Below, one piece after another: positions 17,808 to 50,268 of a stretch of 64,000 nucleotides of DNA. The notes beneath the pieces are model-generated. The model was not told where the DNA came from, made no database searches, and saw only the letters and a list, made by a program, of their open reading frames with translations. Numbering within the stretch: position 1 is the stretch's first letter; every line of letters starts with the position of its first letter. A program made the translations under genes and the position numbers. Source of the DNA: Bacteroidales bacterium (GTDB lineage: Bacteria > Bacteroidota > Bacteroidia > Bacteroidales > UBA932); the NCBI GenBank assembly GCA_017630215.1, contig JAGBVR010000003.1, positions 62,001 to 126,000 of the forward strand, written 5' to 3'.

Positions 17808-17848
17808 AGATTGAATCACCAATAGGTCCTATGAAACCTGCAGGTCGC

Positions 17849-19459
17849 TCAGCAGAAGCCTATTTTAGTCCTGGCTTTGACGACAGCTGGTTTGTATTCG
17901 GGTATGTCATCTGAAGTGATAGTGATCAACGCCTTGTTTCCTGTCACTCCTTGGAGAATGCACCTTTCAGCATGCTTTATCATGATATTCTCCCACAAGG
18001 TGGAAACCTCTCTGGCATTTGCCCAACTACCAGCTGTCCTGGCGTCATACATTCTCTTCAAGAGATCATGAATCAGCTCGGAAACCGAGGCCTCGAGTAT
18101 ATATCCTCCTCTGAAGATACGGTTTATGGCCATTTCATGTAATTGTTCCAAATCATAATCCTCGAAAACAAACCGGTTTGGAAAGCGTGATCTGATGCCC
18201 GGGTCTGTCTGCATGGCCTTCTCCATTTCTTTTTCATAGCCGCAAAGGAGTACGGCAAAATCTCTTTTCGACTCATCGGCCAAGGCAGTCATCATGATCG
18301 GCATGACATTGCGGGAATAGTCTGACTCGTTAGCGCCAAGCATCAGATTGTGAGCCTCGTCAATCATCAGCACAGAGCCTTCGCTCATAGCCAGAAGCAT
18401 TGCGACATTTCTTTCTTCGCTACCTACCCAGCGTCCCAGAAACGATGCTCTGTTGGCGACAATCACGTTGCCTTTGGATAATATCCCTGCCGAGTGTAAC
18501 AGAGAGGCAAACAAGAGAGCAATCGTAGATTTGCCTGTTCCCGGATTTCCAAGCAGGCATGTATGCAGCGAGACGCTCGGCAGCTTGACATGAATATTCC
18601 TTGCTTGCAGTTTGTCACGGAACAGAGACAGATTCCGTATTCTGCGGATGTGCTCCTTTATTTCATCCAGACCTACCATACTTTCCAATATTGCATCTGC
18701 ATTTTTGATCGGCGCATAAATTTTCACAGGCGGAAGATTGCCTCGCGAATAGCTGGATGTGCCATCTGGCTGAAGACTATGATAGACTGGGTCATCTTTA
18801 TCGATTACAGATTCGACATCCACTTCCAGGAAAAGAGGCTGGTCCGGTGCTCCGGCACTTACTTTGACCTCCTCAACGGACAGTTGGGTAGAGCCATCTA
18901 TAACCCTGCCATATTCTTTAAGATCAATATCAGACTCAATGGATTTCATGCTGCTATAAATATCAGCAAAGCCCTTTAAGAAGTCTGGGAACTTGTCCGT
19001 AGTTATGCTCAAGGCATCAAGCCTTTTGACCATTCTGACAGACACCCGCATATTTTTCCATATGCCCTGGATATCATCGTCATTTATAATTCTGGAAGTA
19101 GTTATCAGCACAGAAGCGAAACTTTTTGTCTTTCCGCCAAGCAGTTTCCTAAGCGACTCTGTTACGGCATAGAGTCTGAATACCGGACTTATGCGATATG
19201 ATGCCTCGCTGAAATATAAAGGCAAGCCCTCATTAAAGGGTGCTTCGTCAGCAAGTTCATCCCCTTGATAGTCGTCAATCATAAGTATGACAGCCTCTTC
19301 CGCAGCGATACAGAGATAAAGTCTTCCAGCATCCGGCACAGCAGAGCGGAGGGAATAAACACAAGAGTGAAGAAGGGCTGTGTTCAATTGTCCACACATT
19401 TGCGCCTCATTCTTTTGGGCAATTGCCGAGATGATCGAATTGATGAAACTGTTATTCAT
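17849..19459 (-). CDS. CbbX/CfxQ-type AAA+ ATPase with novel N-terminal domain (AAA-1)
   Basis: A 536-aa protein. Residues about 1-200 form a domain I cannot name (LYLCIAAEEAVILMIDDYQGDE). Residues about 260-510 are one AAA+ module of the CbbX/SpoVK/EccA-like clade: Walker A GNPGTGKST near residue 300, Walker B GSVLMIDEAHNL, and arginine-finger region SRFPNRFVFEDYDLEQL. The tail ends KIGFC. It is clearly paralogous over full length to the proteins at 25286-26899 and 47367-48987. It faces the LRR gene and lies 42 bases from its end. Family members remodel protein complexes; the target here is unknown. Confidence 0.87.
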   Translation of the reverse strand: MNNSFINSIISAIAQKNEAQMCGQLNTALLHSCVYSLRSAVPDAGRLYLCIAAEEAVILMIDDYQGDELADEAPFNEGLPLYFSEASYRISPVFRLYAVTESLRKLLGGKTKSFASVLITTSRIINDDDIQGIWKNMRVSVRMVKRLDALSITTDKFPDFLKGFADIYSSMKSIESDIDLKEYGRVIDGSTQLSVEEVKVSAGAPDQPLFLEVDVESVIDKDDPVYHSLQPDGTSSYSRGNLPPVKIYAPIKNADAILESMVGLDEIKEHIRRIRNLSLFRDKLQARNIHVKLPSVSLHTCLLGNPGTGKSTIALLFASLLHSAGILSKGNVIVANRASFLGRWVGSEERNVAMLLAMSEGSVLMIDEAHNLMLGANESDYSRNVMPIMMTALADESKRDFAVLLCGYEKEMEKAMQTDPGIRSRFPNRFVFEDYDLEQLHEMAINRIFRGGYILEASVSELIHDLLKRMYDARTAGSWANAREVSTLWENIMIKHAERCILQGVTGNKALITITSDDIPEYKPAVVKARTKIGFC

Positions 19460-19613
19460 ATCCGGGTTATGTTTATAAGATGAATCAATATGGTTCTTAT
19501 CTGTTTACTGGCTACAAATAAACTAAGTTCAGCACTGCTGTCCTATTACATACTCAAGTATTTCCCCAAAACTCAGAATAATTAGTCTCTTTGTATGATT
19601 AAGAACATTAAAT

Positions 19614-19803
19614 ATGAAGACAAGAATCTTTTCAATATTGGCAGCGTCCAGCTCCGGAAGAGAGTGAAGTTCCGGCACTTCCTGCCGATCTGCAGCCGGA
19701 CAATATCTCATTCAATCATAAGATCATGCTTCTTCAGCATACGGGGACAGCATGTCCGAACTGTCCGCGCCTGATGGTTTCGTTGAAGGAACTGGCTGGT
19801 GAT
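19614..19803 (+). pseudogene. Fragment of the Omp28-like lipoprotein gene
   Basis: A degraded copy of the 5' part of the gene at 27205. The segment starts ATGAAGACAAGAATCTTTTC, lacks the stretch coding for most of the signal peptide and proline-rich linker, then matches the CxxC region codon by codon (HTGTACPNCPRLMVSLKELA is identical in protein). A stop codon follows soon after the first ATG in its frame. It ends abruptly where the rnr-like fragment begins. Confidence 0.87.
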
Positions 19804-19980
19804 GGAGACTACGAGCACGGATGCGGAACCTCCTTCATTAAAGGCGAAGACGGCTCATTTGACAATGTCACCGTCGGCATCAACAAAGCCGCCCGCAAGG
19901 AAAAGGTCCGCAAGGCCATCCAGGAATCCAAGCGCAAGACTCGTAAAGCCGCAAAAAAGAACGCCTCTAAAAAACAATAG
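19804..19980 (+). pseudogene. Fragment of the 3' end of an RNase R gene from a related genome
   Basis: The translated piece YEHGCGTSFIKGEDGSFDNV continues in register with the C-terminus of the RNase R encoded at 61606-63996 through VRKAIQESKRK. The DNA differs at many third codon positions, so it is not a recent copy of the local gene but probably came from a related species. It is fused in frame to the preceding lipoprotein fragment, leaving an 84-codon open frame from ATG 19726 to 19980. I consider that frame a fossil rather than a functional gene. Confidence 0.87.
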
Positions 19981-20002
19981 CGTAGAGGGCATAAGTATTT
20001 AG

Positions 20003-20041
20003 AATGGTGTGACCGATTTAAAATCGGTCAGACCATTTTTT
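20003..20041 (+). terminator. Stem-loop with T run before cassette A
   Basis: TGACCGATTT pairs with AAATCGGTCA, extended past a mismatch by TGGT/ACCA, then TTTTTT. A near-identical stem (50242-50268) sits at the corresponding end of cassette B. Confidence 0.8.
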
Positions 20042-20045
20042 GTGG

Positions 20046-20165
20046 TACTATAGTATTTCTCTCTCCCTCTCCTTATTAATGCCTTAATTGCAGCGAAATT
20101 CATCACTTATAAGTTCTTTGACATGCGAGGCAATACGTTTGAGCCAACAGTAAACAACGCAGTTT
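20046..20165 (+). repeat. Upstream region shared by cassettes A and B (copy A)
   Basis: Begins with the palindrome TACTATAGTA and includes CTCTCCCTCTCCTT, GAGGCAATACGTTTGAGCC and AGTAAACAACGC. The same elements in the same order occur on the opposite strand at 50208-50095. It probably holds the promoter of the cassette. No TAnnTTTG box was identified with confidence. Confidence 0.8.
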
Positions 20166-20203
20166 TAACTGTATAGTAACACTTCAAAAAATAAGAAAAA
20201 CAA

Positions 20204-21151
20204 ATGTTTACATTTCTGATAAAACCGACCAATGCCTGCAACCTGCGATGCAAGTATTGCTTCATTCAAGACACGCTTAAAGCGTCGTCAAAAATTATGT
20301 CTGTTGATCTGGCTAAGAAGACGATAGACAAAATCGCAGAATTTATCATCGAGCATGATCAAAAAGAATGTAAGATCATATGGCACGGTGGAGAACCTCT
20401 TTTGTGGAAAGCTTCAAACTACGATGCTGTGTTGTCATATATGTATGATGCTTATCCTGAAATATCATGGGAGAATGCCATGCAGTCCAATTTGACCTTA
20501 TTGACAGATGAGCATCTTCGTGTCATAAAGAAATATGATATAGATATAAGTACATCAATGGATGGATACGAGCAAGTGCATGATCAGACCAGGCTGACAT
20601 CTGATGGCTCCGGCAGCCATTCTTTAGTACTGGAAAAGATCAGGACTTTACGTGGAGAAGGAATCAACTTTGGACTTATCTTAGTCTTGACATCCAGAAA
20701 TATAGATAAGATAATAGATATTTATCGTTACTATAAAAACTTGAACCAAGGTTTTCTTATCAATCCTTTGCTTGCAGAAGGAGAGGCCAAGACTAACGAG
20801 GACTTATCTATAACGCCGGAACAGTATTCGGAAGCTATGATAAAGCTTTTTGATTATTGGGTGAAAGACAAGGATGCGGTGAGTGTTTCAAATTTCGTGG
20901 AATGGACTTCGTCGATAGCAACTGGAATGACTTCCATCTGTTCATTTTGTCGGAATTGTCAGACCATCTTCAGTGTGATCGAACCTAATGGTGACATTGC
21001 TCCATGCGACCGTTTCTGCGGTCATAAGGAATTCATTTTCGGAAATATACAGACTGATGATTTAACAGATGTCTATGAGAGAAAATATCGAGCCTTCGCA
21101 AATCGTGCTTATATTTTGAAGGATTCAGAATGTCAAGATTGCAGGTTCTGA
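20204..21151 (+). CDS. Radical SAM/SPASM peptide-modification-type enzyme, cut by in-frame UGA (rSAM1)
   Basis: A 315-aa open frame of a radical SAM protein: CNLRCKYC (Cys12, Cys16, Cys19) binds the SAM-cleaving 4Fe-4S cluster, IIWHGGEPLL is the GGEP-type SAM site, and CSFCRNC with CDRFCGH and CQDCRF begins the SPASM auxiliary-cluster domain. The frame stops at UGA (21149-21151) where relatives usually have an aromatic residue. The same frame then continues with NVCNGGCPSES and a terminal Cys to a natural stop at 21298, which overlaps the peptide start as ATGA. Full length would be 364 residues. It may be inactivated, or produced by UGA read-through. Confidence 0.88.
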   Translation: MFTFLIKPTNACNLRCKYCFIQDTLKASSKIMSVDLAKKTIDKIAEFIIEHDQKECKIIWHGGEPLLWKASNYDAVLSYMYDAYPEISWENAMQSNLTLLTDEHLRVIKKYDIDISTSMDGYEQVHDQTRLTSDGSGSHSLVLEKIRTLRGEGINFGLILVLTSRNIDKIIDIYRYYKNLNQGFLINPLLAEGEAKTNEDLSITPEQYSEAMIKLFDYWVKDKDAVSVSNFVEWTSSIATGMTSICSFCRNCQTIFSVIEPNGDIAPCDRFCGHKEFIFGNIQTDDLTDVYERKYRAFANRAYILKDSECQDCRF

Positions 21152-21298
21152 AATGTCTGCAATGGAGGCTGTCCTTCTGAAAGCATCGGTGGCATGGGAG
21201 ATATCAATCATAAGACAACTTATTGTCATGCTATTAAATCTATATATACACATATAGAAAACTTTATTATTAATCATTTAACACCTTACAAATTATGA
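21152..21298 (+). pseudogene. Remainder of the rSAM1 SPASM domain after the UGA
   Basis: Same frame as 20204-21151. It codes for NVCNGGCPSESIGGMGDI and then TTYCHAIKSIYTHIENFI, supplying the missing SPASM cysteines and a normal end. No other disruption is visible, so the nonsense change looks recent. A remnant of this tail also survives in cassette B. Confidence 0.85.
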
Positions 21299-21519
21299 GA
21301 CTGAATTGTAACACCCCTTATTCCAACCCGTTCCTCTTCATCAACAGGGCTATAGCCGAGAAGGAGGAAAGAATCAAGAGACGTTGCGGAAATCTAGTGA
21401 ATTACTATGATCATGATGCTGGAGTTTATCGCAATATAACCAGTAAATATGTACATATTAACACGGCATGGACTGACACTATGCATTATGAGGACTATGA
21501 CGATAGTTATAGTCTCTAA
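21295..21519 (+). CDS. Short precursor-like peptide of cassette A (74 aa)
   Basis: Starts with ATG overlapping the rSAM1 stop (ATGA). The first 30 residues (CNTPYSNPFLFINRAIAEKE, then RIKRR) are strongly conserved with the 37-aa peptide at 49900-50013, and both end DDSY(S/L)L. The middle is rich in Tyr, Asp, His and Asn (NYYDHDAGVY, DTMHYEDYDDSYSL). A conserved N-terminal half with a variable polar C-terminal half, next to a radical SAM/SPASM gene, is the layout of a RiPP leader and core. This is inference; the family is not one I recognise. Confidence 0.72.
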   Translation: MRLNCNTPYSNPFLFINRAIAEKEERIKRRCGNLVNYYDHDAGVYRNITSKYVHINTAWTDTMHYEDYDDSYSL

Positions 21520-21537
21520 TCGGAGATCCTCTCAGTC

Positions 21538-21780
21538 ATGAAACATAAACAAAAAAATACAGCTCTTATATATTACGTAAAACAACAATACACACTGACA
21601 GATACAGACAGATCCCTCTTAAGTATTTTTTCAGGATACTTGTTCGGAGAGAAAGAAATTTCAGATATCTCACTTCCATATATCGAGATCGACTATTCCC
21701 TGGAACCGGAACATGTAAAGGAAAATCCTTGGCTGGAAAGTGCTGATGGAGAACAGTTTGAACAGCTGAACGCACAGTGA
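21538..21780 (+). pseudogene. Truncated N-terminus of the 269-aa HMLAH-type protein
   Basis: An 80-aa frame matching the first roughly 65 residues of the protein at 48984-49793 (YYVKQQYTLTDTDRSLLSIF, then FSGYLFGE and NPWLESADGE). It breaks off after ADGEQFE and runs straight into AAA+ sequence, so the rest of this gene and the first half of the AAA+ gene were deleted. Confidence 0.85.
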
Positions 21781-22343
21781 ACAAGATACTTGAATTGGCT
21801 CAAGGTGGAGTGCTGTTCATTGATGAAGCTTATCTTCTTTCATCGAGCGATGAAAGGGATCCGGGAAGGGTAGTAATTCAGATGCTGCTGGATATATTGG
21901 CTGACCAGAGCAATAGAGATATAGCAATAGTCCTGGCCGGGTATCCGGATAAGATGCAAGAACTTCTTGCCATCAATCCCGGTTTGACCAGCCGTTTCCC
22001 GAATGTCTTTTATTTTGCTGATTTCAATCTTCAGGAACTGAACTTTATCGCCAAGGCCAATTTCGAAAAATACGGTTATAACCTTACGGATGAAGCCGAG
22101 GTCCAGCTCGAGAAATGCATCAAGGAAGCGTACGACAGGCGGGATCCTCAGACCTGGGGCAATGCCCGGGAAATGCACAACTTATATGAGGCTGTAATTT
22201 TACGGCACGCACAAAGGTGTGTGGCAGAAGGACTTACATTGGAAGATGTGGATCTCCTCATAACAATTGAGCCCGAAGATATCCCCATTCCCAATATTGA
22301 ACACATCACGATTACCCGCACTCAGAAAATCGGCTTCAGATGA
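21777..22343 (+). pseudogene. C-terminal half of a CbbX-type AAA+ ATPase lacking Walker A (cassette A)
   Basis: A 188-aa frame from a GTG overlapping the previous stop. It keeps Walker B (GGVLFIDEAYLL), the SRFPNVF arginine-finger region and the KIGFR tail, and is very close to the C-terminal half of the cassette B ATPase. It lacks the Walker A loop and the N-terminal domain. It cannot bind ATP normally, though it could still be made as a small domain. Confidence 0.85.
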
Positions 22344-22351
22344 TGATGCAA

Positions 22352-22445
22352 TACTAAAGTATGCATTTACTATACTATGAACCCCTTCCTACCTTTGTTC
22401 CAGCAAACGATCGTTCAGCGATAGCTACCTGAGAACGACGTGGAC
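22352..22445 (+). repeat. Downstream region shared by cassettes A and B (copy A)
   Basis: Starts with TACTAAAGTA 8 bases after the AAA+ stop and contains CCAGCAAACGATCGTTCAGC, found on the other strand at 47280-47361. A 15-codon frame MNPFLPLFQQTIVQR begins at 22378; it faintly resembles the NPFLFINRA leader of the 74-aa peptide. Nothing else was recognised in this gap before 22555. Confidence 0.75.
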
Positions 22446-22554
22446 CATGAAGGTTAGATAAAATGTCTTTGATGTTAATCCGGCATAGACATGGGGGCTA
22501 TACAAAGGCAGACTATGTACAATAAAATTCAGTTATTAACACTTAAAGTTTTTG

Positions 22555-22564
22555 AAAGGAGGTG
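22555..22564 (+). promoter_or_regulatory. Perfect Shine-Dalgarno sequence before the 26-aa peptide
   Basis: AAAGGAGGTG lies 6 bases before ATG 22571. Strong Shine-Dalgarno sites are rare in Bacteroidota, and no other gene in this window was seen to have one this good. Confidence 0.7.
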
Positions 22565-22570
22565 TATGAC

Positions 22571-22651
22571 ATGCTTGAAAACAATGCTATTGAGTTATTG
22601 ATCATTAAGCAAAGCCCTTGGTGTGACAATGGAACGAGATCCGGCAAATAG
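22571..22651 (+). CDS. 26-aa peptide, candidate precursor for rSAM2
   Basis: A tiny frame with a perfect ribosome-binding site. It starts MLENNAIELLIIKQ and ends SPWCDNGTRSGK. It is followed by a stem-loop terminator and then by the radical SAM gene, a common layout when a precursor is made in excess over its enzyme. A single Cys and Trp, with Asp, Asn, Thr and Ser near the end, would be plausible modification sites. I know no family match, and a leader-peptide role in attenuation is the main alternative. Confidence 0.5.
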   Translation: MLENNAIELLIIKQSPWCDNGTRSGK

Positions 22652-22690
22652 TTATTCCATGGCTGAAACTATTACAGCAAGGTAGCTATG

Positions 22691-22737
22691 GAGGCCATAT
22701 ATTAAGATTGGGGATAATTAATGTATGGCCTCTTCTT
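22691..22737 (+). terminator. Stem-loop between the 26-aa peptide and rSAM2
   Basis: GAGGCCATATATTAA pairs with TTAATGTATGGCCTC (15 bp, one G-U), followed by TTCTTT. It probably stops most transcription ahead of the radical SAM gene, acting as an intra-operon attenuator. Confidence 0.7.
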
Positions 22738-22778
22738 TAATTCCACAACTGTTTTTGAATCACTAATAAGGAAAGAAC

Positions 22779-24155
22779 ATGAGAATGACATTGTCCGCAA
22801 AATTTGCATTGAGAGGCTGGAAGTCACTGCCGTATGCGTTGGTGGATATCACTACTGGTGAGTCGTACTTCATTACAAGTAAGACTTTTAATGCTATTAT
22901 AGATGCAACTTCCCAAGATACTGCATACCTTCAAGAAAGTGAAGTTATATCTTGCTTGATACGAGAGAATATACTGATTGAGGAAGATAGGGAATTGTTT
23001 GATTATCAAAAATATAAGCAATATTCCTCAAGGTATATCAAAAATGCACACTGGGCTGTAACGAACTTATGTAACTATAAATGCAAGCATTGCTTTATCT
23101 CTGCTCCGACAACAACAAGAAAGGGCTTAGACACCGGCTCTTGCAAAATGATAATCGACAAACTGGAAGAGTTCGGCATATATAACTTATCTATCACCGG
23201 AGGTGAACCATTCATCAGGAAAGATATTATAGAAATCATGCAATATGCAAAGTCAAAGGGTATACTTCTGACAGGCATATTTACCAATGGAAGCTTGTTG
23301 ACCAAAAAACACATAAATGCAATGCTTGCAATTGGTCTAAGACCAACGTTCTATATAAGCTTTGATGGTTGGGAAACTCACGACTGGCTCAGAGGGGTTA
23401 AAGGGGCAAGAGAGAAAGCTATGGAAGCAATTGCATTGCTTAAAAAAAATCATTTGCCTGTCCATCTTACCTATATGATATTAAAGAAAAGTCTGAAGCT
23501 CATTCTTCAGGATTTAGACTCTCTTGCCATGTTAGGGGTCGATAAAATCAGATTCGGTTTGATGAGCAGTACCGGAGAATGGAGTAAATCAGGGGAGGCC
23601 CATAATGTGTCTTTCAAAGAAGTTCTGGAGCACATTGTCAAAATATTACCTGAGATTATCGAGCGCAAATATCCCTTCAGTATTGATGTTGCAGGCATCA
23701 TCATGATTGAGCAATATGCGTCAAAATTCAGAATTCCAATGGATAAAGGGCGTATTGATGATGAGCTTCTTAATAAAATTCCGTGCTGTACCTGTGCTCG
23801 TAATAGCTTGTATATCAATCCTACCGGTTGCTTGACAGGCTGCGAAATATTAGGGGAGTTGGAGGGAGAGCACTATCCGAATATCATCACTGCAGATGCA
23901 GATTCATTATTCTGCATGTCTCACGGGTATTCTAAACTAGCAAACCGATCGCTCGGAGATCTTTTTCAAGTGAATAGAGATTGTCAGACTTGCCAATATG
24001 TCACTGTATGCCGAGGAGGGTGTCGAGCCAATGCTTACTTTCATTCTGGAAACATTAATGGCGTAGACAACAATGCCTGCACATTTTTTAAAGGTGGATA
24101 TTATGAGCAAATTTTACAATTGATGGAAGCGTTAAAGGTCTGTAGATGTGAATGA
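22779..24155 (+). CDS. Radical SAM/SPASM protein with N-terminal PqqD-like region (rSAM2)
   Basis: A 458-aa enzyme. Residues about 1-85 (ALVDITTGESYFITSKTFNA and following) look like the PqqD/RRE-type winged helix that binds leader peptides. The radical SAM core has CNYKCKHC (Cys98, Cys102, Cys105) and ITGGEPFIRKD. The C-terminal SPASM domain has CCTCARNSLYINPTGCLTGC and CQTCQYVTVCRGGCRANAYF plus a final Cys. Such proteins install thioether or carbon-carbon links or epimerise residues in RiPPs. The gene appears intact. Its stop overlaps a 23-codon frame as ATGA. Function on the 26-aa or 74-aa peptide is inference. Confidence 0.9.
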   Translation: MRMTLSAKFALRGWKSLPYALVDITTGESYFITSKTFNAIIDATSQDTAYLQESEVISCLIRENILIEEDRELFDYQKYKQYSSRYIKNAHWAVTNLCNYKCKHCFISAPTTTRKGLDTGSCKMIIDKLEEFGIYNLSITGGEPFIRKDIIEIMQYAKSKGILLTGIFTNGSLLTKKHINAMLAIGLRPTFYISFDGWETHDWLRGVKGAREKAMEAIALLKKNHLPVHLTYMILKKSLKLILQDLDSLAMLGVDKIRFGLMSSTGEWSKSGEAHNVSFKEVLEHIVKILPEIIERKYPFSIDVAGIIMIEQYASKFRIPMDKGRIDDELLNKIPCCTCARNSLYINPTGCLTGCEILGELEGEHYPNIITADADSLFCMSHGYSKLANRSLGDLFQVNRDCQTCQYVTVCRGGCRANAYFHSGNINGVDNNACTFFKGGYYEQILQLMEALKVCRCE

Positions 24156-24223
24156 CAGACGATTCCTCTTTCCCTTCGGAGATGTACTCTCATGACGGCC
24201 ATGAGCTGACTGCAAAACAATAA
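24152..24223 (+). CDS. 23-aa frame coupled to rSAM2, contains YSHDGHE
   Basis: ATG overlaps the rSAM2 stop. The peptide runs MTDDSSFPSEMY then SHDGHELTAKQ. Cassette B downstream sequence (minus strand, near 47246-47266) encodes PSGTYSHDGHEP in a frame without a start. The conservation could be protein-level or only a shared DNA element, since another frame (PFGDVLS) is also conserved. Coding status is uncertain. Confidence 0.35.
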   Translation: MTDDSSFPSEMYSHDGHELTAKQ

Positions 24224-24245
24224 AAATTAATTGAAACATGAGATT

Positions 24246-24926
24246 ATGAAAAAAACAGAAAAGTTGCTTTCTTTTCAGGAGATGGTGGATAAGTACCGGG
24301 TTCCTGCTACAAACAAGTCTTTCCTTTTAGATGACAGTGATGCCGATCATCTGATCATAAGCCCGGGGTTCCACTCTCTTCAGATTCAAGAACTGGGGCA
24401 TGATGATGAAATCGTTCAGGAGTTCGCCCGCTTATGGATGAAGGGCGAATTGGATACTGCAAAACAGCTTCTTGTAACAGTCATTGAGGGAAAAGGGGTC
24501 TGCGGAAATGAACATATCGGTATCATTTTAGCGTCTGTGCTATCGTATACAGGAGATTATTCTGAAATTAAGCACCTGCTTGCAAGCTGTGTTAAAACAG
24601 CAAGTGAGGAATTGCTGATTATTGCTGTAAACGTGTTGTTCCAGGCATCTATCCTAACCAAAACCTTATCTGTGGCAGAGGCCTGGGATGCAAAAGATTA
24701 CCAGGATCCTGAATTCCAGCTGCATCGGGGAAGGCTGGCTCTGTGCAAAGGAGAAGAGGAAAAAGCTATCAGGTGTTTTGCATCAGCCTCACGTCTGGTT
24801 TCGGATGAGAGTTGCAATGAATTTATAAGAATGATTGCTCATCACGAACTTAACCAGATCTTCACTTCTGGCGATGATACTTTTTCTTTCAATCTATGCA
24901 ATAATCCGGGAGGCTACCTGTCGTGA
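24246..24926 (+). CDS. TPR-like helical protein, 226 aa
   Basis: The ATG at 24246 is preferred to a TTG 15 bases upstream. After a charged N-terminus (MKKTEKLLSFQEMVDKYRVP), residues about 70-200 consist of helix pairs with TPR character (GELDTAKQLLVTVIEG, HRGRLALCKGEEEKAIRCFA). There is no signal peptide. The last residues, NLCNNPGGYLS, are coded by DNA resembling the left arm of the hairpin at 25090-25128, so the end of the gene may have been created by insertion or deletion there. It could be an adaptor for peptide maturation. It has no counterpart in cassette B. Confidence 0.72.
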   Translation: MKKTEKLLSFQEMVDKYRVPATNKSFLLDDSDADHLIISPGFHSLQIQELGHDDEIVQEFARLWMKGELDTAKQLLVTVIEGKGVCGNEHIGIILASVLSYTGDYSEIKHLLASCVKTASEELLIIAVNVLFQASILTKTLSVAEAWDAKDYQDPEFQLHRGRLALCKGEEEKAIRCFASASRLVSDESCNEFIRMIAHHELNQIFTSGDDTFSFNLCNNPGGYLS

Positions 24927-24955
24927 GACTCGTATCCGCTTGCAAACTGGAAATC

Positions 24956-24970
24956 TGCAATACTATAGTT
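24956..24970 (+). repeat. Copy of the boundary palindrome after the TPR gene
   Basis: TGCAATACTATAGTT matches the TGCAATACTAAAGTA element found at the ends of cassettes A and B. Confidence 0.5.
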
Positions 24971-25100
24971 CCAATGCACGGAATAGTATACGATCGTCTA
25001 AATTTGCAGTTGTAAAGATAAGGGTGAAGACTGGTGCTTAGCTAGACGCGATTTTCCAATCTTCCTCTTAGAATAGCTAATAAGACATGATAATCCGGGG

Positions 25101-25275
25101 GCGACCAGTCGTGAAGATTCGTCGCCTCTTTTTTTTTACAAAGTCAACTTTCAAATGTTTTCCACACAGTCATTTTAAAGCAGGCTGATTCCGTATACAT
25201 ATAATACTAGAGTATGGAATAGCTCATGTTGGGAGAAGTAGGTTTATTTGCATAACACAAACTAATATTACTTAA
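25101..25275 (+). repeat. Long direct repeat, left copy, including terminator hairpin
   Basis: About 175 bp nearly identical to 26967-27129 apart from a gap of about 12 bases. It starts with the hairpin GGCGACCAGTCGTGAAGATT / TCGTCGCC plus a run of T (25101-25137), then AAGTCAACTTTCAAATG and GTTGGGAGAAGTAGG. It occupies most of the gap before AAA-2 and probably carries its promoter. Confidence 0.9.
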
Positions 25276-25285
25276 ATCTAATTAT

Positions 25286-26899
25286 ATGAATAAGAGTTTC
25301 ATCAATTCCGTCAAATCTGCGGCTGCCATAAAGAAAGAGGCACAAATGTACGGAGAATTGAACCTTGCTCTCCTCCATGCCAAGATCTATCCCCTCAAAG
25401 CTGTCCTGCCGGGTGCCGGAAGGCTTTATCTCTGCGTAGCCGCAGAAGAGGCAGTAATCCTTATGATCGATGAATATCGTGGTGATGAACTGGCGAGTGA
25501 GGAACCACTCCATGGAGAATCGCCTTTGTATTATAGCGAGACATCTTCTCGCGTCAGTCCCGTCTTCAGGCTATGGGCTGTTACGCTTGAGCTGAAAAAA
25601 CATCTTGAAGGCAAAGTGAAACAGTTTGCCTCTGTTATGCTCACGACCTCCAATATTATAAACGAACCTGACATCGAAAACATATGGAAAAACATTCGGG
25701 TGCATGTTCGAAGGGTAAAAACTTTCACAGGCTTGAGTATTACCGCTGACAGGACTCCTAAATTCGTGAGGGCATTTACAGACATATATTCGGCAGAAGA
25801 AACTGTCGAGTCACATGTGGATATGGAAGAATATCGCAATGCTGTATCTGGAACTTTACAGCCTTTTATAGATGAAGATGACAGTGAATCAGTTCATCGT
25901 GATGTTCAGCCTCTTTTTGTGGAAGTGGATGTGGAGTCTATAATTGACAAGGATGATCCTGTATACCATTGTGTACAACCAGATGGAACATCCAGTTATT
26001 TGAGGAGCAACCTTCCGCCTGTGAAGGTTTATGCCCCCATCACCAATCCGGATGCAGTGCTGGAAAATATGGTCGGGCTGGACGATGTCAAGAGCCACGT
26101 TCGCCGAATCACCAACCTTTCTCTCTTCCGCAAGAAACTGGAGAACAAAAACATACATGTGAAACTTCCGACTATATCCCTACATACCTGTTTTCTGGGT
26201 AATCCGGGAACAGGAAAGAGCACTGTTGCAGTTTTATTCGCCTCTCTTTTGCATGCGGCTGGAGTTTTATCCTCAGGGAATGTAATTATCGCCAACAGAG
26301 CCTCTTTCTTAGGACGTTGGGTGGGTTCTGAGGAAAGGAATGTCGCAATGCTTCTTGAAATGAGCAAAGGTTCGGTCCTGATGATTGACGAAGCACACAA
26401 TCTAATGCTCGGAGCTAATCCATCTGACTATTCGCGAAATGTCATGCCAATAATGATGACGGCTCTCGCGGACGAGACAAATAGAGACTTCGCGGTTTTG
26501 CTGTGTGGCTATGAAAAGGAAATGGATGAGGCAATGGCCACTGATCCCGGAATCAGGTCGCGCTTTCCTAACCGTTTTGTTTTCGAAGACTACAATGTCG
26601 AGCAACTCTATGAAATGGCTGTTGGCCGCATAGTCGGGGGTGGCTATATTCTTGAAGACACAGCTTCCGAAAAGCTCCATGATATTTTGCAGCTGATGTA
26701 CGACCATAGGGATCCCGCAAATTGGGCAAATGCCAGAGAGGTTTCCACACTATGGGAGAATATCATGATCAGGCACGCCGAAAGATGTATCCTCCAAGGA
26801 GTGAGCGTGAATAAGGCGTTGATCACGATCACTTCCGATGACATACCAGAGTATAAGCCTGTTGCTATCAAGCCTAGGACTAAAATCGGCTTCTGCTGA
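25286..26899 (+). CDS. CbbX/CfxQ-type AAA+ ATPase with novel N-terminal domain (AAA-2)
   Basis: A 537-aa intact paralogue of AAA-1. The N-terminal domain (residues 1 to about 210) matches AAA-1 closely (GRLYLCVAAEEAVILMIDEY). A linker with FVEVDVESIIDKDDPVYH follows. The AAA+ module has Walker A GNPGTGKST (about residue 305), Walker B GSVLMIDEAH (about 361-370), arginine fingers in SRFPNRF (about 423-430), and the tail RTKIGFC. The gene is framed by 163-175-bp direct repeats, so it forms a unit that could be lost or multiplied by recombination. It may supply the ATPase function that cassette A lost. Confidence 0.9.
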   Translation: MNKSFINSVKSAAAIKKEAQMYGELNLALLHAKIYPLKAVLPGAGRLYLCVAAEEAVILMIDEYRGDELASEEPLHGESPLYYSETSSRVSPVFRLWAVTLELKKHLEGKVKQFASVMLTTSNIINEPDIENIWKNIRVHVRRVKTFTGLSITADRTPKFVRAFTDIYSAEETVESHVDMEEYRNAVSGTLQPFIDEDDSESVHRDVQPLFVEVDVESIIDKDDPVYHCVQPDGTSSYLRSNLPPVKVYAPITNPDAVLENMVGLDDVKSHVRRITNLSLFRKKLENKNIHVKLPTISLHTCFLGNPGTGKSTVAVLFASLLHAAGVLSSGNVIIANRASFLGRWVGSEERNVAMLLEMSKGSVLMIDEAHNLMLGANPSDYSRNVMPIMMTALADETNRDFAVLLCGYEKEMDEAMATDPGIRSRFPNRFVFEDYNVEQLYEMAVGRIVGGGYILEDTASEKLHDILQLMYDHRDPANWANAREVSTLWENIMIRHAERCILQGVSVNKALITITSDDIPEYKPVAIKPRTKIGFC

Positions 26900-26966
26900 G
26901 ATTGTGGCCATAGGCTAGTTGCTTAGCGCTTTTTGCTTTTAATTTTTTTCTCATAAAATTACAGAG

Positions 26967-27129
26967 GCGACCAGTCGTGAAGATTCGTCGCCTCTTTTTT
27001 TTACAAAGTCAACTTTCAAATGTTTTCCACACAGTCATTTTAAAGCAGGCTGATTCCGTATAAGAGTATGAAATAGCTCATGTTGGGAGAAGTAGGTTTA
27101 TTTGCATAACACAAACTAATATTACTTAA
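26967..27129 (+). repeat. Long direct repeat, right copy
   Basis: Second copy of 25101-25275, starting with the same terminator hairpin (stem GAGGCGA.../...TCGCCTC and T run) 67 bases after the AAA-2 stop. The rest of the interval to 27204 holds the promoter of the next gene. Confidence 0.9.
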
Positions 27130-27178
27130 TTCCTTGAAAACGGGTATCTTTTTTAAGAAACAGCAACAGAAAAATACC

Positions 27179-27186
27179 TATCTTTG
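27179..27186 (+). promoter_or_regulatory. TAnnTTTG -7 box for the lipoprotein operon
   Basis: TATCTTTG lies 18 bases before ATG 27205. It shows that the TTG at 27184 is not the start. Confidence 0.75.
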
Positions 27187-27204
27187 CGACTTAAGACTCA
27201 GATT

Positions 27205-28062
27205 ATGAAAATGCGATTTTTCTCAATATTGGCGGCATCGCTGCTGATTATGGGCGGATGTACCGGCGATGAGCCGCAGACTCCGCCGCCACCCTCACCT
27301 GAAGAGGCTGAAATCCCGGCACTTCCTGCCGATCCGCAGCCGGACAATTTATCCTTCAACCATAATATCATGCTGCTGCAGCACACCGGAACTGCATGTC
27401 CGAACTGTCCGCGTCTGATGGTTTCGCTGAAGGAGCTGGCTTCTGATAAGAATTATGCTGATACATATCAGCACGTAGCCTCACATTCATATAATACCGA
27501 CGATCCAGCATATTCGAAGGCTGCAAGCCAGATTTCAGGACAATCGCGCGCCTACCCTGACCTGTCATTCAATCTCGGTGCGGAAAGTACCGGAAATGAC
27601 ACGTCTCTGCCTACTATCAAGAGGTATATTGACCAGCTTCACAAGAAATCTGCCGATGTCGGAATTTCCGCTGCAGCCGGGCTTTCAGGCAATACAGTCA
27701 CCGTCAATGTACAGATCAAGGCTGCCATGGACAATAATTACAGGGTCACAGCATGGCTGCTGGAGGATGGCATTGAAGCCGAGCAGGATGGAGCGACAGC
27801 AGAGTGGATGCATACCCACGAGAATGCTTTGAGAGCGTTTTCCGGTACTTCCCTCAACATGGGTGTTTATGGTGAAAGACTGGGGGATCTGAAAGCCGGT
27901 CAGACGGCTGAAAAGGTGCTGACAATTGCTGTTGAGGAAGGATGGAAAGCAGAAAACTGCAAGGTGCTGGTAATTGCCAATTCATCGGTGGAGGGCAGAT
28001 ATGACCTGGCGAATTGCATCATTTGTCCTATAGGAGGAACTGTAAGTTATGATTATAAGTAA
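27205..28062 (+). CDS. Omp28-like outer-membrane lipoprotein with CxxC motif
   Basis: A 285-aa lipoprotein (MKMRFFSILAASLLIMGGC lipobox) with a proline-rich linker and then a thioredoxin-like segment HTGTACPNCPRLMVSLKELA typical of Omp28-related Bacteroidota proteins. The C-terminal half is a beta-sandwich (NTVTVNVQIKAAMDNNYRV). Function of the family is not settled; thiol chemistry or surface binding is suggested by the CxxC. It begins a three-gene operon. A broken copy of its 5' region lies at 19614-19803, beyond the left part of the island. Confidence 0.85.
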   Translation: MKMRFFSILAASLLIMGGCTGDEPQTPPPPSPEEAEIPALPADPQPDNLSFNHNIMLLQHTGTACPNCPRLMVSLKELASDKNYADTYQHVASHSYNTDDPAYSKAASQISGQSRAYPDLSFNLGAESTGNDTSLPTIKRYIDQLHKKSADVGISAAAGLSGNTVTVNVQIKAAMDNNYRVTAWLLEDGIEAEQDGATAEWMHTHENALRAFSGTSLNMGVYGERLGDLKAGQTAEKVLTIAVEEGWKAENCKVLVIANSSVEGRYDLANCIICPIGGTVSYDYK

Positions 28063-28063
28063 G

Positions 28064-38370: not shown

Positions 38371-38371
38371 A

Positions 38372-38685
38372 TTTTCTACTTTATTACTTAATTTGACAAT
38401 TCTAAACTTATCGCTGCTTTCGAGGGCGTGCATAATATGAAAATATGTCTACGTTACCTTTCCCCTAAATCCCCTTTCTCGGAAAGGGGACTTGCTATCG
38501 CTACGCTCAAAGTTTTCTACTTTATTACTTAATTTGACAATTCTAAACTTATCGCTGCTTTCGAGGGCGTGCATAATATGAAAATATATCTACGTTACCT
38601 TTCCCCTAAATCCCCTTTCTCGGAAAGGGGACTTGCTATCGCTACGCTCAAAGTTTTCTACTTTATTACTTAATTTGACAATTCT
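38372..38685. repeat. 141-bp tandem duplication upstream of asd
   Basis: Two full units (38372-38512, 38513-38653) and a partial third. Units share TTTTCTACTTTATTACTTAA and TTTCCCCTAAATCCCC and differ at one base seen (ATATGTCT against ATATATCT). Each unit contains the asd leader and, on the minus strand, TAAGTTTA, a possible -7 box, so the promoter appears duplicated. Confidence 0.9.
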
Positions 38686-38689: not shown

Positions 38690-38867
38690 TGGATTTCTCG
38701 TCTCACTTCGTTCGCTCGAAATGACACTTGTGCTTCGTTTCAATGACACTTGTGCTTCGTTTCAATGACGGCAGTGCTTTGTATCTAATGACAATTGTGC
38801 TTAGTTCGAAGGGAATGGGCCTGTTACTTGTCATTTCGAGCGAGGCCTTGGCCGAGTCGAGAAATCT
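38690..38867. repeat. REP-like repeats left of the GIY-YIG gene
   Basis: Contains GATTTCTCGTCTCACTTCGT...CTCGAAATGACA, several spaced AATGAC(A/G)-nTTGTGCTT units, and an inverted GTCATTTCGAGCGAG...GAGAAATC end at 38830-38867. It fills the gap with no coding frame. Confidence 0.85.
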
Positions 38868-39159: not shown

Positions 39160-39167
39160 AGTTTATG

Positions 39168-39300
39168 GATTTCTCGTCTCACTTCGTTCGCTCGAAATGA
39201 CAGTTGTGCATTCTCTCGTAATGACAGTTGTGCATTCTCTCGAAATGACAGTTGTGCATTCGCTCGAAATGACAGTTGTGCGTTCGCTCGTAATGACGAC
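39168..39300. repeat. REP-like repeat and 24-bp tandem units right of the GIY-YIG gene
   Basis: GATTTCTCGTCTCACTTCGT then about four units of TCGAAATGACAGTTGTGCAT with period 24. The first part is the inverted counterpart of 38830-38867. Confidence 0.85.
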
Positions 39301-39326
39301 TGTACGTTGTTCGCAGTTCTTGCGGT

Positions 39327-47110: not shown

Positions 47111-47158
47111 ATGAACAAAGAGGCGACGAATCTCACGACTGGTCACCTCTTTGTTCAT
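47111..47158. terminator. Hairpin shared with the direct repeats, end of cassette B
   Basis: ATGAACAAAGAGG...CCTCTTTGTTCAT with an inner part reading GACCAGTCGTGAGATTCGTC on the minus strand, the same core as at 25101 and 26967. It sits between convergent permease and cassette B and may end both transcripts. Confidence 0.8.
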
Positions 47159-47224: not shown

Positions 47225-47361
47225 CCGTTTTCCAGGTTGCGCCGGCTCGTGGCCGTCGTGAGAGTACGTCCCCGAAGGGAGGAAGAAAGTATTGCTGAAC
47301 GATCGTTTGCTGGTACAAAATTAGGGAGTTATATAGAGACTGTGAAGCAAATACTAAAGTA
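47225..47361 (-). repeat. Downstream region shared with cassette A (copy B)
   Basis: On the minus strand, TACTAAAGTA-type core (47352-47361), CCAGCAAACGATCGTTCAGC, then CCTTCGGGGACGTACTCTC and ACGACGGCCACGAG. The first half matches 22352-22420 and the second half matches 24160-24205, which are 1.7 kb apart in cassette A. The join shows deletion of the rSAM2 region. No gene was recognised here. Confidence 0.8.
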
Positions 47362-47366: not shown

Positions 47367-48365
47367 TCACCTGAATCCTATTTTCTGAGGACGGAGAATC
47401 CTGGCATTTTCTACATTTGGGACAGGTATATCTTCAGGTTCAATCGTTATCAAGACATCAATATCTTCCGACGTAACACCTTCTGCCATACACCTTTGTG
47501 CATGTCGTAGAATTACAGCCTGATATAGATTCTCCATTTCGCGAGCATTTCCCCATGTTTCCGGATCTCGGTTGTTGTATAAATCCTTGATGCAATTCTC
47601 CAACTGTGCTTCGGCCTCATCACCAAGATTATAACCCATCTTTTCGAACTTTGCACAAGCAATAGTTCTTAGTTCCGAGACGTTGAAATCTGCGAAGGTG
47701 AAGACATTTGGAAAACGGCTGGTCAAGCCTGGGTTGACAGAAAGAAGTTCATGCATCTTATCCGGATATCCAGCCAAAACAATTGCGATATCTCTATTTT
47801 TATCGTCAGCCAAAATATCCAGAAGCATCTGGATTACAATTCTTCCCGGGTCTTTGTCGTCATTTGTGGCGAGGAGATACGCTTCATCAATAAACAAAAC
47901 GCCACCCTGAGCCAATTTAAGTATCTTACCCACAACACTTTCCGCATGTCCCCAATACTTATCGATAAAGCTGGAACGATCAGCAATCACGACTTGACCT
48001 GTCGACAAAAGCCCAATATCATAAAGCAGGCTGGCGTATAATCTTGCGACAGTGGTCTTGCCGCATCCGACTGACCCGGTAAATATGGCATGAAGGTTTA
48101 TATCCTGACTCGACGACAAAGTAAGTGGGGCCATCAAAGCATTATAGCATGCAAATGTTGACAGTTCCTCTATCTTGCGTTTTACTTCTTCCAATCCTGT
48201 CAATTCCATCAAGGCACGTCTGGGGTCGGATTCTCGACGATAGACCTCTACTTTCGGTATTGACAACACTTTCTTCCCCCCCGGGGTATTCATCATAGAA
48301 ATCCGGATCATCCTCAACCCATTTCCTGATATCCACCCGCTTAGGCGGAGACTCAAACTCTTCAT
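47367..48365 (-). CDS. AAA+ module of the cassette B ATPase (AAA-3), separated by a frameshift
   Basis: The part from about 48270 downwards codes for a CbbX-type AAA+ module: TGLEEVKRKIEELSTF, Walker A TGSVGCGKTTVARLY, Walker B GGVLFIDEAYLLATND, arginine region SRFPNVFTFADFN, and tail RPQKIGFR. The first roughly 30 residues of this open frame are out-of-frame sequence; the true upstream part is in the other frame (48142-48987). The two join at C7 48276-48282 (G7 on the coding strand). With six G the gene would be one 539-aa protein like AAA-1 and AAA-2. Walker A reads GSVGCGKTT instead of GNPGTGKST. Confidence 0.85.
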   Translation of the reverse strand: MKSLSLRLSGWISGNGLRMIRISMMNTPGGKKVLSIPKVEVYRRESDPRRALMELTGLEEVKRKIEELSTFACYNALMAPLTLSSSQDINLHAIFTGSVGCGKTTVARLYASLLYDIGLLSTGQVVIADRSSFIDKYWGHAESVVGKILKLAQGGVLFIDEAYLLATNDDKDPGRIVIQMLLDILADDKNRDIAIVLAGYPDKMHELLSVNPGLTSRFPNVFTFADFNVSELRTIACAKFEKMGYNLGDEAEAQLENCIKDLYNNRDPETWGNAREMENLYQAVILRHAQRCMAEGVTSEDIDVLITIEPEDIPVPNVENARILRPQKIGFR

Positions 48366-48987
48366 CAGAAATCACGGGCCTGCCCTCTCCATCTGTTTCC
48401 TCCACGAACTTAGAGTTATATTTCTTCCGATCATACGAAGAAGGCTCGGCATCCCTGACTGACTCAAGAAATGACGCCACATCTGAAGATAGAGCAATAT
48501 CATCACAAGATATTTTCCGGAGATTTTCCGTCAGATTCTCAAGCGACATCCTTACTTTGACATTAAGGCGCCTCCAGCCGCGCTCCATATCCACGGAATT
48601 AACGATATTGCTATCTGTAAGAAGCAGTCCAGCTATCTTATCCTTCGCTACCTCGCAATGCTCGGAAAATGCCTCCATATAAGAGACAAGTTCATACACA
48701 GGGCTCTTTCTTCTGGACGCAGATGTATGATAACATGGATATGAGCACCCTTCTCCGATATACTCATTTGCCATTTCGCATTTGTCATTCATGGCATGAT
48801 CAAGCATAATGAACACGTGCTCTTCTCCCTTGGAACACAGATAGATATGCCTATCCTGAAGTTCCTTTACCAGCACAAGCCTGCTGGATTTTCCCGAAAT
48901 CACTGTCATGAAACCCGACCACATCGTATCTTCATCTCTCCTCTCCAGGATGGAGAGGAAGAGTTGCTTCAAACTTATCGGTTTCAT
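48142..48987 (-). CDS. N-terminal domain of the cassette B ATPase (AAA-3), frameshifted
   Basis: Residues 1 to about 235 correspond to the N-terminal domain of AAA-1 and AAA-2 (HIYLCSKGEEHVFIMLDHAM aligns with RLYLCVAAEEAVILMIDEY; VAKDKIAGLLLTDSNIVNSV aligns with FASVMLTTSNIIN). After EYPGG the frame runs into unrelated residues and should switch to the frame of 47367-48365. The start ATG overlaps the stop of the preceding gene (ATGA). The G7 tract may be a sequencing error, a mutation, or a slippage switch. Confidence 0.82.
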   Translation of the reverse strand: MKPISLKQLFLSILERRDEDTMWSGFMTVISGKSSRLVLVKELQDRHIYLCSKGEEHVFIMLDHAMNDKCEMANEYIGEGCSYPCYHTSASRRKSPVYELVSYMEAFSEHCEVAKDKIAGLLLTDSNIVNSVDMERGWRRLNVKVRMSLENLTENLRKISCDDIALSSDVASFLESVRDAEPSSYDRKKYNSKFVEETDGEGRPVISDEEFESPPKRVDIRKWVEDDPDFYDEYPGGEESVVNTESRGLSSRIRPQTCLDGIDRIGRSKTQDRGTVNICML

Positions 48988-49793
48988 TGTTTTTTCAAGA
49001 TTGGAACAATATCTTCATAAACCACATATTTTGGATTAATCTCTGGCCATAAGTTGTTTATATAGTCAGCATTTCTAGCTAAAGAAATCGCCACCCCGAA
49101 ATCATCAAGCGTAGCATCAACAAAATCCCGGTACCTTCGATAGTTTTCAGACTGGACATCTGACAATTTCGTAAAGAGTTCCAGGGGTTCCGAATCAGAT
49201 TCCAATGCAAAATAGATCAGCAGCTGCGCTATGGTTTCCAGATATCCTTCCGAACACTTTCTGAAATACTCCGGAGCAGCCACATGATACTGCATCTTTA
49301 TAAATTTCGTGTCGCACCCGTTGTTCTCCATCAAGGCCAGACATATTCTCGTTTCTTCTTTCCAGAAAGGCGTCACCAACACCCCTTTAGGGCATTGAGT
49401 CACATAATGAGCAAGCATGTGGATCAATACCAAAGCCCTCAGGAGATCTTCATTGACCTCAAGCAAGCTGGCATTTGCTGCAATAGCCCTGTCATATAAG
49501 GTGATCGAGAATGTTTCCGGTATATAGCATCCCATCTTCTCCATATCAAAGAAACCATCATTCTCGTCGCGACATGCAAAAAAATCCTTTCTCAGCAGAT
49601 TAAAACGCTCGCCATCAGCGCTTTCCACCCATGGATTTTGCTTTACCAGCTCCGGTTCCAGGGAACGGTCGATCTCGATATACGGAAGTAAGATATTTGA
49701 ACTTTCTCTCTCTCCGAACAAGTATCCTGAAAAAATACTTAGGAGGAATCTGTCGGAGTCGGTCAGTCTGTATTGTTCTTTTACGTAATACAT
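48984..49793 (-). CDS. Unrecognised 269-aa protein with HMLAH motif (cassette B)
   Basis: I do not recognise the family. No signal peptide. Residues about 125-200 read LVLIHMLAHYVTQCPKGVLV, then WKEETRICLALMENN and SEGYLETIAQLLIYFALES. The spacing of HxxxH and the later E-x-x-A-Q is like a zinc-peptidase core (HExxH...E), but the catalytic Glu would be Met, so it may be an inactive or merely look-alike fold. It lies between the short peptide and the AAA+ gene, overlapping the latter by ATGA. A truncated copy is at 21538-21780. Confidence 0.75.
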   Translation of the reverse strand: MYYVKEQYRLTDSDRFLLSIFSGYLFGERESSNILLPYIEIDRSLEPELVKQNPWVESADGERFNLLRKDFFACRDENDGFFDMEKMGCYIPETFSITLYDRAIAANASLLEVNEDLLRALVLIHMLAHYVTQCPKGVLVTPFWKEETRICLALMENNGCDTKFIKMQYHVAAPEYFRKCSEGYLETIAQLLIYFALESDSEPLELFTKLSDVQSENYRRYRDFVDATLDDFGVAISLARNADYINNLWPEINPKYVVYEDIVPILKKQ

Positions 49794-49899: not shown

Positions 49900-50013
49900 T
49901 CAGAGGAGATAACTATCGTCACAATAACGTCTCTTGATTATTTCCTCCTCGGCTACAGCCCTATTGATGAAGAGGAACGGGTCGGAATAAGGTGTGTTAC
50001 AACTTTGTCTCAT
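49900..50013 (-). CDS. Short precursor-like peptide of cassette B (37 aa)
   Basis: Too short for usual gene callers. The peptide starts MRQSCNTPYSDPFLFINRAV and ends AEEEIIKRRYCDDSYLL. It matches the leader of the 74-aa peptide at 21295 and shares its DDSY-L end, but lacks the intervening 35 or so residues. High conservation of the first 30 codons and identical position ahead of the HMLAH gene argue that it is real. Whether a core remains is unclear. Confidence 0.7.
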   Translation of the reverse strand: MRQSCNTPYSDPFLFINRAVAEEEIIKRRYCDDSYLL

Positions 50014-50078
50014 AACTTGAAGGTTTTAAATGGTTAGCAATAAATTTTTCCACATGAGCTCTTGTTTTTAATGCATTA
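50014..50078 (-). pseudogene. Remnant of rSAM1 C-terminus in cassette B
   Basis: The minus strand encodes NALKTRAHVEKFIANHLKP immediately before the peptide start, matching HAIKSIYTHIENFIINHLTP at the end of rSAM1. The rest of that gene is absent; the shared upstream region resumes at about 50095. This shows deletion of rSAM1 from cassette B. Confidence 0.8.
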
Positions 50079-50094: not shown

Positions 50095-50208
50095 CGCGTT
50101 GTTTACTATTGGCTCAAACGCATTGCCTAGTAAATAAAAGAACCTAGCATGTAAATGTGTCCGAAAGAACGGCATTTTAAAGGAGAGGGAGAGCAAAGTA
50201 CTTTAGTA
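50095..50208 (-). repeat. Upstream region shared by cassettes A and B (copy B)
   Basis: Minus strand: TACTAAAGTA (50208-50199), GCTCTCCCTCTCCTT, AGGCAATGCGTTTGAGCC, AGTAAACAACGC. Counterpart of 20046-20165. Its distal half must hold the promoter, if any. Confidence 0.8.
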
Positions 50209-50233: not shown

Positions 50234-50268
50234 TGAAAAAAAATGGTGTGACCGATGATCACACCATT
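50234..50268 (-). terminator. Terminator of the CotH/GH92 operon
   Basis: AATGGTGTGA pairs with TCACACCATT and on the minus strand is followed by TTTTTTT, 29 bases after the CotH stop. It resembles the stem at 20003-20041. Confidence 0.85.

Follow-up and report, generated by a model that had tools for sequence, protein, structure and literature searches.

How two related gene cassettes within one genome came to hold different parts of what appears to be a single peptide-modifying pathway, and what that pathway would have made, is the question raised by a 64,000-nucleotide (nt) stretch of DNA from a Bacteroidales bacterium (GTDB lineage Bacteria; Bacteroidota; Bacteroidia; Bacteroidales; UBA932), which corresponds to positions 62,001 to 126,000 of contig JAGBVR010000003.1 in assembly GCA_017630215.1 and is referred to here as the window. 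Cassette A (20.0–25.1 kb, forward strand) and cassette B (50.27–47.1 kb, reverse strand) share parts of genes for a radical S-adenosylmethionine (SAM) maturase (rSAM1), a short peptide, an orphan protein of 269 amino acids (aa) and an AAA+ ATPase of the SpoVK/CbbX type. The assembly around the window is of metagenome type, comprising 2.26 Mb in 50 contigs and judged 57.8% complete, and the G+C content is 39.8% for cassette A, 42.7% for cassette B and 46.9% for the window.

It is considered probable, with the proposed chemistry and regulation included, that A and B are duplicates of one two-unit locus for a ribosomally synthesized and post-translationally modified peptide (RiPP), each of which decayed differently; direct observation covers the homology, the lesions and a promoter-like element common to both. 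The first unit of the ancestor would have carried rSAM1, the precursor peptide, the 269-aa protein and the SpoVK/CbbX-type AAA+, and the second a further radical SAM protein (rSAM2) and a tetratricopeptide repeat (TPR) protein, with hairpins at both ends of the locus. A would have lost the 3′ part of the 269-aa gene with the 5′ part of the AAA+ gene and gained a stop in rSAM1, and B would have lost rSAM1, the peptide core, rSAM2 and the TPR gene and gained a frameshift in AAA+.

Homology and Probable Decay of the Two Cassettes

Six blocks common to A and B were observed in the blastn comparison, with order and relative strand kept, which bears out the homology asserted in a preliminary description of this DNA. 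These blocks are the region upstream of rSAM1 (20046–20190 and 50208–50065, 73%); the end of rSAM1 with the peptide leader (21251–21385 and 50056–49926, 85%); the first 68 codons of the 269-aa gene (21566–21769 and 49795–49592, 85%); the second half of the AAA+ gene with its 3′ flank (21783–22423 and 47927–47290, 75%, E 1e-119); a 36-bp stretch 3′ of rSAM2 in A (24171–24206 and 47280–47245, 89%, E 3e-7); and the right-hand hairpin (25100–25134 and 47147–47114, 91%, E 1e-6). The left hairpin is likewise found in both cassettes. The terminator-like hairpins of A lie on the forward strand at 20003..20037 (fold −20.8 kcal/mol, z −6.0; counterpart at the left end of B) and 25097..25129 (−19.3 kcal/mol, z −3.3), and those of B on the reverse strand at 50242..50268 (−15.5 kcal/mol, z −5.8) on the left and 47114..47155 (−24.9 kcal/mol, z −7.4) on the right. 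A DNA search of the assembly with cassette A gave no third copy beyond the source contig, and no tRNA that could mark an integration site was found in the window.

The genes of cassette A all lie on the forward strand. rSAM1 (20204..21151) encodes a radical SAM/SPASM maturase with Pfam Radical_SAM (58 bits) and SPASM (32.6 bits) matches, both above cut-off, and is interrupted by an in-frame TGA within the SPASM motif (CQDCRF*NVCNGGC), after which the frame reopens to 21298 and overlaps the start of peptide A (21295..21519; 74 aa, with a leader and an aromatic-rich core); both radical SAM genes said to be kept in A were thus located, one of them broken. An N-terminal fragment of the 269-aa gene with 68 homologous codons (21538..21780) follows, and then the C-terminal half of the AAA+ gene, which lacks Walker A (21777..22343). 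The fusion of the two that had been described at codon ~65 is confirmed by blastn, with codon ~68 of the 269-aa gene joined to the middle of AAA+ and ~1.66 kb absent relative to B. The second unit consists of rSAM2 (22779..24155; a 458-aa radical SAM protein with the Pfam Radical_SAM domain, whose best NCBIfam model is AhbD at 113.5 bits against a cut-off of 500) and a TPR-like protein with a weak TPR match only (24246..24926; 226 aa from ATG, or 231 aa from TTG at 24231). Anti-phage defence was considered and set aside, PADLOC having returned only viperin-type radical SAM matches for the two radical SAM proteins.

Cassette B, on the reverse strand, retains the 3′ end of rSAM1 as a remnant at 50010..50056 (HVEKFIANHLKP in B, HIENFIINHLTP in A), which amounts to the last ~45 coding bp rather than the ~65 bp first described. 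Peptide B (49900..50013; 37 aa) has a leader and a DDSYLL end and lacks the core, so that the peptides of A and B share the N-terminal leader and the C-terminal DDSY(S/L)L, with 37 intervening residues lost in peptide B. The 269-aa orphan gene is full length (48984..49793), belongs to no Pfam, NCBIfam, PADLOC or PHROG family and gives a low-confidence predicted fold (pLDDT 32.7). The AAA+ gene (47367..48987), which like the 269-aa gene had been taken as kept, is split into open reading frames (ORFs) at 48142–48987 and 47367–48365 by a frameshift at a G7 run (48276–48282), the sole G7/C7 homopolymer in the window; slippage or phase variation at this run is a possible cause of the frame break. 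B holds neither rSAM2 nor the TPR gene, and a counterpart of the 3′ sequence of rSAM2 in A, the 36-bp match, stands at 47245..47280, the flanks of rSAM2 being directly joined in B as had been claimed.

What each copy retained, a piece of rSAM1 in B and the truncated 269-aa and AAA+ genes in A, polarises both events as deletions, and duplication followed by different deletions is well supported by the alignments. An origin of A and B by independent assembly of modules, in which the rSAM1 and rSAM2 units were inserted into A by recombination at repeated promoters and hairpins, is very improbable: it would fit the repetition of promoter and hairpin elements, the direct repeats that flank the solo AAA+ gene C (25100–25278 and 26966–27132, 92%, each with a hairpin and promoter region) and a synonymous divergence (dS) that differs block by block, but it is opposed by the same retained gene pieces in B and A. 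Derivation from one ancestor by different losses, as first proposed, thus stands in outline, although additional lesions in rSAM1 of A and AAA+ of B prevent the two copies from being clean complements. Both copies, as assembled, look non-functional for the full pathway.

Since the cassettes come from a metagenome-type, incomplete assembly, and the frameshift falls at the only G7/C7 run of the window while a single TGA breaks an rSAM1 frame that is open before and after it, the lesions might also be largely assembly or consensus errors, with at least one cassette functional. This is quite improbable, as base errors could not produce the large deletions, with their truncated ends, that both copies show. 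By eye, the ORFs outside the cassettes are long and adjacent and no further gene is obviously split, so that a consensus of generally poor quality is disfavoured, although an error at the stop or at the frameshift is still possible.

Decay of a once functional duplicated locus also agrees with the ratios of nonsynonymous to synonymous divergence (dN/dS) between A and B, which are 0.33 for the leader (30 codons), 0.46 for the N-terminal part of the 269-aa gene (68 codons) and 0.11 for AAA+ (188 codons). These values show purifying selection, so that the parts shared by A and B were functional coding sequence.

A Shared Palindrome and Promoter-like Element

A palindrome, TACTNNAGTA, was observed at seven sites, three in A, two in B and one each upstream of the solo AAA+ genes C and D, and at five of them it is followed after 28 nt by an exact match to a −7 element. 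Before rSAM1 of A the palindrome reads TACTATAGTA (20046..20091, +) and the −7 element at the 28-nt offset is weak, with 3 of 6 positions; the same applies to the site at the start of B, before the peptide (50163..50208, −, 3 of 6). Exact, promoter-like matches precede the rSAM2 unit of A (22352..22397, +, TACCTTTG); follow the TPR gene, with no gene before the hairpin and the 3′ half of the palindrome one base off (24961..25006, +, TAAATTTG); lie upstream of solo AAA+ C (25205..25250, +) and D (19515..19560, −), both with TTTATTTG; and follow AAA+ in B, where the unit downstream is deleted (47316..47361, −, TAATTTTG). TAnnTTTG at −7 is given as the primary sigma-factor consensus of Bacteroidetes (PMC7366714).

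Scored against TAnnTTTG over the seven sites, the 28-nt offset reaches 34 of 42 and the runner-up among 90 offsets tested 21, and over the four non-homologous sites (one per homologous pair) it scores 20/24 against 13/24 for the runner-up. Spacers at non-homologous sites mostly differ from one another, with 5–10 of 28 positions identical in most pairs and 17 for the start of A against the site after AAA+ in B, which argues that the palindrome and the −7 element are conserved at a fixed distance. In the 2.26-Mb assembly the composite of palindrome, 28 nt and −7 element has five exact matches, all within this system. At one mismatch or fewer it occurs at 12 places, seven of them outside the system, and the reversed control at 22, so that these sites are treated as background and only the five exact ones carry weight. 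The short palindrome occurs at five places, as it does in its control, and all five real ones are inside cassettes A and B; within the window, at two mismatches or fewer, there are 11 matches, three of them at unrelated places (3894, 35425 and 51848), against a mean of 2.37 and a largest value of 6 in 100 shuffles.

We read the palindrome as a putative activator-type site centred near −47, and judging from these sequences the units that bear it in A, B, C and D probably form one putative regulon. The promoter-like element between AAA+ and rSAM2 in both copies indicates that the ancestor probably had two transcription units; the single operon reconstructed in the preliminary description is thus the less likely arrangement. 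No riboswitch or structured RNA was matched in Rfam at E 0.5 in 17000–29000 or 46800–50600, the folding of the 5′ leaders is no more stable than that of shuffled sequences (z 0.4 and 0.7), and a scan for sigma-70 promoters and terminators was no richer than shuffles (22 against 25.2 and 7 against 9.0).

Two further sites were noted. A decayed palindrome at 27059, with two mismatches, precedes an Omp28 lipoprotein gene at 27184 because it was carried there by the direct repeat flanking AAA+ C. A one-mismatch composite at 13071–13116 of contig C2 in G000 (L119), which may be background, lies ~80 nt before a BspA-type leucine-rich-repeat gene that resembles the gene at 16425 in the window.

Solo AAA+ Genes and Their Family

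Solo AAA+ C (25286..26899, +; 537 aa) is a SpoVK/CbbX-type ATPase with an unnamed N-terminal domain, and solo AAA+ D (17849..19459, −; 536 aa) is 71% identical to it, with a dN/dS between the two of 0.07 at saturated dS. The ATPase part of C and D shares ~40% identity with that of A and B, and the N-terminal domain 27–31%. Pfam cut-offs are exceeded by the ATPase part of B (PF00004, 48.2 against 21.2 bits; PF17866, AAA_lid_6, 46.6 against 24.3 bits), and AAA+ C scores 49.9 bits for PF00004 and 37.3 bits for PF17866. The scores stay below the equivalog cut-offs for CbbX, a Rubisco activase, and SpoVK (TIGR02880, 175.9 against 459.25 bits; TIGR02881, 191.3 against 422.95 bits).

The promoter-like element common to all four loci (A–D) would also suit a split but co-regulated pathway that arose by duplication with complementary loss, in which A supplies the peptide, rSAM2 and TPR protein, B the 269-aa protein and C and D the AAA+ activity, complementing one another in trans under one regulator. 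C and D are intact and constrained (dN/dS 0.07), and the AAA+ fragment of A shows no excess of change, with one A-only against two B-only differences in 184 columns, few of them informative. Such a division of labour is nevertheless unlikely, given that neither copy, as assembled, supplies rSAM1, which A carries in interrupted form and B has lost, and that C and D have only the limited identity to A and B given above.

rSAM1 Relatives and Their Peptides

For rSAM1 of A, whose query ends at the TGA, the best NCBIfam model is DynA (NF041298; 245 bits, cut-off 450), and all models shown score below their cut-offs, including the cyclophane maturases YhhB (144.8 against 445 bits), GrrM/OscB (115.1 against 310) and XyeB (63.8 against 450). 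Matches to rSAM1 at 1e-40 occur in 5 of 295 genomes of the order, the source genome included, the others being G892 (two loci), G959, G144 and G131. Four relatives have E <= 1e-60 (G892 twice, G959 and G144; 33–37% identity), and a small ORF adjoins each of them or sits one small-protein gene away. The loci in G892 (L100, L102) and G144 (L045) are compact, with the order aromatic-rich peptide, membrane-anchored small protein and radical SAM, and in the second of the two G892 loci the radical SAM gene has what looks like a frameshift close to its start.

The motif class [WYFH]x[NDE] was defined on peptide A before the peptides of the relatives were seen; in peptide A, on which it was chosen, it occurs 9 times against 3.35 expected. 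The relatives' peptides contain 7, 8, 7 and 2 occurrences against 3.0, 3.9, 2.4 and 2.6 expected, three of the four being enriched (p 0.007, 0.008 and 0.0004), and the pooled count of 24 against 11.9 expected was reached in none of 20000 shuffles. The RiPP reading gains support from these rSAM1 relatives with adjacent aromatic-rich peptides. In triceptides, i,i+2 cyclophanes are formed between Trp and Asn/Asp by OscB and between Tyr and Asp by YxdB (PMC11002830), and from the motif counts we infer that the product of the ancestral locus was probably a triceptide-like, cyclophane cross-linked small peptide.

Searches for an Intact Locus

An intact operon elsewhere, which the preliminary description had named as confirmation, was not encountered. 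The 269-aa protein matched its own genome alone among 200 relatives and 395 genomes of the phylum (overlapping sets); its single match of 21 residues in IMG/VR lies where no ORF resembles the query and was taken as chance, and plasmids gave three weak matches (best E 0.4). The proposed search with the AAA+ N-terminal domain returned, among the 200 relatives, the source genome and one match in G016, which was rejected as chance-like, covering 38 residues within a 753-aa ORF of another kind. With the AAA+ profile, 75 of 400 same-genus genomes have an ATPase-domain match at 1e-25, whose neighbour genes were left uninspected, and the best score outside the source genome is 218.7 bits against 545–557 for its own copies. 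AAA+ C gave a single 27% match, in the ATPase part, in the scan of genome contigs. AAA+ matches were found in 257 plasmid and 11 phage records, none covering 80% of the query; the best plasmid match, a B. finegoldii ATPase, was discarded, since it does not match the N-terminal domain of B and lies near no annotated radical SAM gene.

The rSAM1 profile, at the strict cut of 1e-75, found only the source genome among 295 genomes of the class. In IMG/VR there were no matches to rSAM1, rSAM2 or the DNA pattern of the peptide leader, and in phages none to rSAM1; an rSAM1 relative gave nine distant matches (22–31%) in IMG/VR and none in plasmids at 1e-40.

Weighing of the Proposed Pathway

In the ancestral pathway as we propose it, rSAM1 would have installed i,i+2 cross-links at the aromatic-x-Asp/Asn/Glu sites of the peptide core, rSAM2 may have made a second modification, and the AAA+ protein could have served as a motor that remodels the peptide or an enzyme. 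Both units, together with solo C and D, would have been switched on by a regulator bound at the palindrome, ~47 bp ahead of the start site.

Several observations weigh against this pathway and its decay. No intact locus was found in any search, and neither rSAM1, which reaches no cyclophane-maturase cut-off in NCBIfam, nor its full-length relatives score above these cut-offs. The G959 peptide is not enriched in the motif (p 0.80), and the fifth relative, in G131, adjoins a GG-type peptide of another kind and was not counted in the pool. The stretches fetched around the relatives contain no AAA+, 269-aa, rSAM2 or TPR gene in their ORF lists and no palindrome, from which the locus in the window is taken to be a variant with added parts. 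The palindrome pattern was derived from these same sites, and where A and B begin the −7 element is weakly matched. The stop in rSAM1 and the frameshift in AAA+ could be assembly errors. Finally, dS is 0.26–0.31 in the two 5′ blocks against 1.43 in the AAA+ block, for which one duplication alone is insufficient; the 5′ block may have been exchanged after duplication.

Neighbouring Repeats and Paralogues

Other repeats were observed in the window. Directly before cassette A, a chimeric ORF (19654–19980) joins a piece of an Omp28-type lipoprotein gene (19654–19803, 85% to 27298–27447) to a copy of the 3′ end of RNase R (19806–19938, 86% to 63798–63930). Two paralogous CotH-kinase-type lipoprotein genes stand in the same cluster at 50376–51917, for which CotH was found by Pfam, and 56936–58477 (70% DNA identity). 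Between metabolic genes there are repeats (38360–38685, 38690–40785), where 38360–38544 resembles 38500–38685 at 97%, with diverged copies at 39150–39304 and 40601–40785.

Comparison with Known Systems

The statement in the preliminary description that no described RiPP class pairs these genes is too strong for the rSAM1–peptide part, which resembles chemistry of the triceptide/dynobactin type; for the AAA+ and 269-aa partners in radical SAM peptide loci, limited searches of papers found no precedent. The chemistry probably belongs to a known kind in variant form, and novelty lies in the regulon signature and in the link to a SpoVK/CbbX-type ATPase. A bolder proposal, hardly likely, is a new RiPP system spread over four loci (A–D) under one regulator, which would still complement one another in trans despite their complementary gene losses, and in which the radical SAM enzymes or the cross-linked peptide would be remodelled by the orphan 269-aa protein and by the AAA+ motor with its own N-terminal domain. 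If true, the main reading given here brings two additions to the radical SAM chemistry of peptides, a motor of the CbbX/SpoVK type and an orphan partner. The palindrome 28 nt before TAnnTTTG, marking every unit, would also be a searchable signature with which the rest of the regulon and its regulator could be retrieved from better genomes. The two copies also offer a readable case of biosynthetic loci duplicating and falling apart.

The AAA+ proteins share the AAA and AAA_lid_6 domains with the SpoVK/CbbX/EccA ATPases, CbbX being the best solved relative (E 1.6e-48), but differ from them in their scores below the equivalog cut-offs, the unnamed N-terminal domain and the linkage to a radical SAM peptide locus. 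With the triceptides (three-residue cyclophane RiPPs; OscB, XncB, YxdB, YhhB) the locus has in common a SPASM radical SAM enzyme beside a short precursor with aromatic-x-Asp/Asn core sites; unlike them, it has an rSAM1 below all NCBIfam cyclophane cut-offs and the extra 269-aa protein, SpoVK-type AAA+, second radical SAM and TPR protein. It is not filed as a triceptide because rSAM1 falls below those model cut-offs. As for the dynobactin and darobactin maturases (DynA, NF041298; DarE), DynA is the top model both for rSAM1 and for its relatives (300.6 and 261.5 bits), but all of them score below the cut-off of 450, and the precursors and neighbouring genes are of other kinds.

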